DNA of 64,000 nt from positions 11,487,427 through 11,551,426 of the forward strand of contig JASSKH010000010.1 in NCBI GenBank assembly GCA_031763025.1, given 5' to 3'. Of this stretch, positions 954 to 62,256 are shown in pieces (within the stretch, counting starts at the first letter, position 1; every line of letters begins with the position of its first letter). The stretch is from Macrocystis pyrifera. Its lineage: Eukaryota > Sar > Phaeophyceae > Laminariales > Laminariaceae. The translations under genes and the position numbers were made by a program. Under the pieces are notes generated by a model. It saw nothing but the letters and a program-made list of their open reading frames with translations, was not told the origin of the DNA and did no database searches.

Positions 954-62256
<61,303 letters not shown>

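Follow-up and report, generated by a model that had tools for sequence, protein, structure and literature searches.

TACCWGGTA, a TA-flanked palindrome in great excess in the giant kelp genome, is probably the excision scar of a Tc1/mariner-like transposon

The palindrome TACCWGGTA is present far above chance both in a 64-kb window of DNA from the giant kelp Macrocystis pyrifera (the window being the whole stretch analysed here) and in the giant kelp genome, and we propose that its copies are probably scars left on excision by a Tc1/mariner-like, TA-targeting DDE transposon that cut 5 bases inside its ends. Exact matching finds 16 sites in the window, where 500 dinucleotide-preserving shuffles gave a mean of 0.454 (maximum 4) and an order-2 Markov model predicts 0.49 once most simple repeats are masked; these values agree with the expectation of about 0.5 per 64 kb given in an earlier note on this DNA. 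When all 9-mers of the window are ranked by the same type of model, TACCAGGTA takes rank 12, and those placed above it are, besides CTATTAATA, mainly simple repeats or bits of one MITE family. Across the whole assembly (537,376,219 bases, 223 contigs), in which the window is C190:11487427-11551426, the motif occurs 121,279 times, as compared to 2,421 for a reversed-pattern control, and the genome-wide enrichment that the earlier note had asked to see is therefore present. The published M. pyrifera genome is described as comprising 537 Mb in 223 contigs with 50.37% GC (PMC10498591). Twenty 10-kb stretches from contigs C1-C11, which are small and repeat-rich, contain 27 sites (200 kb, 50.1% GC), and when the TA-N5-TA cores of 254 kb are ranked by z-score, CCWGG comes first (36 versus 2.0 expected). 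The remnant between the TAs is palindromic with an ambiguous centre, as the middle base of TA-CCNGG-TA is A in 8, T in 8 and C or G in 1 of the window sites, and W outnumbers C/G by 27 to 4 in the 200-kb sample.

In the window, the TACCAGGTA form stands at 1270-1278 (exact match, no strand, intronic), 11546-11554, 15642-15650 (exact match), 25377-25385 (exact match), 25974-25982 (in a minisatellite), 28982-28990 (within a copy of the MITE-A family at about 28934-29049), 54524-54532 (exact match) and 58943-58951, whereas the TACCTGGTA form is found at 39115-39123, 58668-58676, 59515-59523, 60689-60697 (exact match), 61669-61677 (exact match) and 61915-61923. The remaining two are the units of TACCTGGTACCTGGTA at 14958-14973. 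All 16 sites listed in the earlier note are present, but its coordinates 58942, 59514 and 61914 are one too low and should read 58943, 59515 and 61915. Independent events number fewer than 16: the sites at 14958 and 14965 have a common TA, and those at 58668 and 58943 occupy the left and right arms of one single-locus palindrome (58644-58975), so that the second is not independent of the first. At 61915 the motif is followed by CCTGG, forming a double whose last TA has decayed, and the near match TACCAGGTGCCAGGTA at 52831-52846 can be read as a putative decayed double in which the middle TA became TG.

The sites lie within a host gene on the plus strand (885-62264). Residues 1117-2711 of the full-length dynein heavy chain P0016 (4,584 aa; taken from the dynein matches listed, 120 of 3,481) are collinear with the plus strand over this interval, and because they align in order along the window, the whole window represents a single dynein gene whose introns are long. 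All 16 motif sites are intronic, with no overlap with an aligned exon (those at 39115 and 59515 lie 33 and 29 bases upstream of aligned exons, respectively); since exons cover little of the window, their lack of overlap with the motif does not weigh much. Intronic placement, palindromic symmetry and an abundance of 121,279 copies are also what might be seen if TACCWGGTA were a functional motif, either a protein-binding site or a splicing signal, that was spread and kept by selection. We consider this quite unlikely. The two orientations occur 8:8 within one plus-strand dynein gene, which argues against a strand-specific splicing signal and led us to reject that version, and the clean 7-base insertions, the target-type flank preference and the decayed forms described below, which are common in both flank and core, also count against a selected motif.

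The change from TA to TA-CCWGG-TA that the earlier note had claimed is visible in aligned repeat copies, and A and T are equally frequent at the centre of the window sites (8:8). In five aligned groups (28982, 14958, 11546, L013:5477 and L020:4264), the TA is duplicated around the remnant where other copies have a plain TA. At 28982, the MITE-A copy has 7 additional bases relative to its aligned sisters, which have a plain TA; removing these bases raises the alignment score against the best MITE sister from 67 to 76, and 54 alignments each of the emptied and full versions passed the filter. The site at 14958 has 14 additional bases, and its emptied version scores 48 versus 36 for the full version against the copy at 50002-50085, which has none of the units. 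Both cases are clean. Two further copies of the 14958 repeat occur in L014, one with one unit and one with none; the one-unit copy allows more than one history of this site and counts against the scar reading. At 11546, the emptied version scores 23 against a local repeat (11590-11628) that is without the 7-base unit, with no full match among those listed, and emptied versions also align better at L013:5477 (50 versus 45) and L020:4264 (43 versus 37). Of the three empty-site controls put forward in the earlier note, those at 28982 and 14958 thus hold, whereas the third, at 25974, is weak, as emptying it brings no gain in alignment score (22 emptied versus 28 full). The pair at 58668 and 58943 yields no clean empty-site case, since the motif is present in both palindrome arms. 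An automated count of empty sites gave no support for insertion, as 'empty' copies were scored at 6 of the 34 motif sites and at 50 of the 219 control TA-N5-TA sites, but this count was badly calibrated: its score gaps are in many cases too large to come from a gap of 7 bases, which means that different copies were compared. It is the individual alignments listed above, and not the automated count, that support insertion.

The sequences that surround the motif are mostly unrelated, with 29 distinct flanks among 40 site groups (304 kb). This bears on the idea that larger repeats carried the motif ancestrally and that the copies without it have lost it. Some sites do lie within amplified segments (the C1 paralogs and the families of double sites), L015:4723 and window position 49842 carry the motif at one homologous place, and a single palindrome accounts for both 58668 and 58943, one in each arm. 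Nevertheless, the diversity of flanks speaks against an ancestral origin, and the aligned MITE-A sisters without the motif would require a loss in every one of them; we therefore hold this explanation to be very improbable. The earlier note had named descent from one larger repeat as an observation that would count against its reading, and for most sites this is not what is seen.

The TA context of the scars shows a Tc1/mariner-type insertion preference that resembles ANNTANNT. ANNTANNT is the consensus target of Sleeping Beauty and represents a preference of Tc1/mariner-type insertion. After scars and duplicate flanks were removed, A at position -3 (or T at +3) was found in 0.50 of the flanks of 29 sites, as compared to 0.28 for all TAs (p 0.001), although the AYR flank score used in this test was composed after the flank counts were seen; in seven later sites A at -3 or T at +3 is present in 6 of 14 flanks. 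The genome-wide ANNTANNT count, a test that was fixed before its result was seen, found 20,834 scars in the context ANN-scar-NNT (17.2% of 121,279) and 9,001 in the opposite context TNN-scar-NNA (7.4%), whereas the same flank patterns around the reversed-motif control numbered 178 (7.4%) and 143 (5.9%) of 2,421, respectively. Both ZB and SB are described as favouring palindromic AT-rich target sites in PMC7913693.

Doubles in which two units have a common TA (TACCWGGTACCWGGTA) occur 5,620 times genome-wide, while the corresponding control is absent (0), and they are roughly ten times commoner than second hits at random TAs predict (arithmetic based on 15,638 TAs in 304 kb). This surplus, together with the identical centre base in both units of the window's doubles and near-doubles and the failure to find a donor element in 264-344 kb other than a single-locus candidate, favours an origin by repair or slippage without a transposon, in which a short palindromic filler would be used to mend breaks at TA, and the doubles would arise when the 7-mer is duplicated in tandem. 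We judge such an origin unlikely, as general repair is not expected to produce a fixed five-base palindrome in which only the centre varies, nor a transposase-type target context (20,834 versus 9,001), and the 20 doubles examined on small contigs include mixed orientations (same, AT and TA). These 20 doubles are copies of few repeat families, and for this reason the orientation of doubles was dropped as an argument.

Decayed forms of the motif are abundant. In 264 kb, one-mismatch forms number 85 versus 53.5 expected, with the excess mostly at flanking TA positions (3 in the core versus 23 in the TA flanks, a small sample). The two bases that follow TACCWGG are TA in 86 of 175 cases, CA in 16 and TG in 16, and the latter two are what transitions in the TA are expected to produce. 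Genome-wide, TGCCWGGTA occurs 29,522 times (control 3,662) and TATCWGGTA 21,210 times (control 5,973; the places listed include tandem arrays), so that for one transition class each the excess is 15,237 in the core and 25,860 in the flank. The local samples used for decay and for the core ranking left out the C1 paralog stretches (8, 8 and 8), and the 254-kb core ranking also left out L028. Scars decay in flank and core, with the core apparently decaying more slowly. This slower change of the core is the best argument for a function of the motif and counts against the scar reading.

Excision of a TA-targeting transposon would account for the scars as follows. The element would insert at a TA and duplicate it, preferring an A three bases before and a T three bases after, which is the preference observed at the scars. 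Upon excision, one strand would be cut at the edge of the element and the other 5 bases inside it, leaving tails of TA-CCWGG; these tails would be complementary except for the middle base and could pair with each other, and repair of the single mismatch at the centre to either A or T would produce TA-CCWGG-TA. As the scar retains two TAs, a second element that entered and left one of these would generate TACCWGGTACCWGGTA, which may be how the observed doubles arose, and point mutation would afterwards degrade the scars, consistent with the large excess of one-mismatch forms.

The excision footprint of Sleeping Beauty is TAC(A/T)GTA. The kelp motif resembles footprints of this Tc1/mariner type in its duplicated TA, palindromic remnant, A/T-ambiguous centre and ANNTANNT-type target context. 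It differs from Sleeping Beauty-type footprints in having more than 100,000 copies in one genome and no donor found in 264-344 kb, and its core of 5 bases exceeds the published footprints, which in the parts of the sources consulted are 2-4 bp for Tc1/mariner and 0-3 for ZB (PMC7913693), and 0-4 for Passer (PMC9976928). We do not file TACCWGGTA as a member of the Tc1/mariner footprints, given that its remnant exceeds this published range and that the donor is missing. The footprint interpretation of the earlier note accordingly gains from the genome-wide enrichment, distinct flanks, TA context and aligned insertions, and is weakened by the missing donor and by a core of 5 rather than 2-4 bases. 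Among the matches listed from open-licence PubMed Central text (in two cases 20 of 261 and 20 of 224), no title concerned TACCWGGTA or kelp footprints, and in the 20 listed of the 224 papers that contain a form of the motif strings, degenerate forms had 0 occurrences. The three-base counterpart TACWGTA is likewise TA-flanked, W-centred and in excess (182,385 versus 70,689 genome-wide), and CWG is the most over-represented TA-N3-TA core (71 versus 31.3, 254 kb); in the badly calibrated automated empty-site test it scored 16 of 58 versus 37 of 212 for its control. A second class of scar with a 3-base stagger would give an excess of TACWGTA and may contribute here, as may trinucleotide repeats.

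No donor element was found in the 264-344 kb searched. The earlier note had inferred an active TA-targeting element with CC...GG ends and suggested a search for TA-flanked elements with CCWGG termini; in 264 kb, a single inverted pair, 58668-58951, has CCWGG-like ends next to TA. This candidate (CCTGG...CCAGG) was rejected, as TACCWGGTACAGGTAGGCG occurs genome-wide only at its own two arms and the homology extends outside the TA at each end. A list of TA-flanked inverted repeats from 344 kb consists mostly of MITE-A, with none listed that starts with CCWGG, although its filter drops pairs whose homology runs outward. The region 1040-8836 of L018 was also discarded as a TA element, as it is a large inverted duplication whose homology continues past TA, and none of the insertions listed between paralogous stretches has CCWGG edges. 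The donor may be extinct, rare or located outside the sampled sequence.

A TA-targeting class of DDE transposase is present in the genome. The DDE_3 profile gave 0 matches among 3 candidates, and the Transposase_1 profile gave 0 matches in a search in which no control registered, whereas the profile of DDE_1 (pogo-type) gave 39, of which 20 have open frames of more than 200 codons with no stop inside. Pogo-like (DDE_1) elements form a TA-targeting superfamily. In kelp, the pogo-like element was set aside as donor since no CCWGG is present at the ends examined. The DDE_1 gene sits in a larger dispersed repeat (two 4.6-kb copies plus eight end stretches of four further copies), and L020 and L030 differ by the presence or absence of 2,921 bp with TA at the edges and CAGTAG, not CCWGG, at one outer end, which are candidate boundaries of the element. 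Pogo-like DDE_1 transposase genes are present in L051 (from C202) and L052 (from C32), and in L052 the DDE_1 frame appears by eye to be preceded by a cysteine-rich frame and a frame resembling a helix-turn-helix. In another brown alga, Ectocarpus, TA-type elements of the Mariner-Tc1 group comprise 17 families and 11,912 copies, most of them non-autonomous, and the words 'footprint' and 'excision' have 0 occurrences in the text of the source (PMC12477816).

Excision is usually invisible in a reference genome, as it leaves either nothing or a few bases that are indistinguishable from chance; the TACCWGGTA scar has a length and regularity that allow a genome-wide count. To our knowledge, a 5-base stagger is not known for Tc1/mariner/pogo elements, and our interpretation would, if correct, add a new cleavage geometry to those of TA-targeting transposases. 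The excess over the reversed control, approximately 119,000 copies in 537 Mb, would then be a record of very much past cut-and-paste movement. The chances seem to us evenly balanced for the broader proposal that a brown-algal lineage of TA-targeting transposases cuts 5 bases inside the element and has been so mobile that its scars (more than 100,000 intact and more decayed) far outnumber its elements. If so, cut-and-paste events could be counted and dated from the giant kelp genome, and some of them would have re-used the TAs of earlier scars. The past rate of transposition, target choice, repair outcome and re-use of sites could be measured in one genome, and the scars would provide a very large set of 7-base markers for kelp population genetics.

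Several other repeats were encountered. MITE-A is about 109 bp long, ends in TTACGGGGGTCCATAGT, is flanked by TA and has dozens of copies in the window (e.g. 31233-31342, 12062-12170 and 17060-17168). Another enriched W-centred palindrome, TAGGWCCTA (12 in the window), was rejected because all 12 contexts are MITE-A by eye. A collection of viral contigs contained no kelp DNA, and among bacterial genome contigs there was only one case, a MITE-A copy (L001:1-112) at the edge of a contig from a Saprospiraceae MAG (JALZVB010000085.1), which is probably kelp DNA that was joined during assembly. A second family of approximately 100 bp is palindromic around GGGACTGCAGTCCC (34660-34761, 15745-15858 and 58757-58853). 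In the 254-kb sample, TACTGCTGTA/TACAGCAGTA is also strongly over-represented (15 versus 0.6), and position 3691 of L018 features a palindrome, GTACAGCAG-TA-CTGCTGTAC, that contains a TACCTGGTA. A gypsy-type retrotransposon with RVT_1, RNase H and integrase domains occupies 17907-23666 on the minus strand within a dynein intron and contains 0 TACCWGGTA; its two LTRs have 100% matches to the same copies, at 56345-56836, which suggests that the insertion is probably young. Those copies belong to an odd double solo-LTR in a microsatellite (56253-57803), in which about two head-to-tail copies of the gypsy-type LTR (56345-56840, period 260) lie inside a pure GTAT array of more than 1,000 bases.
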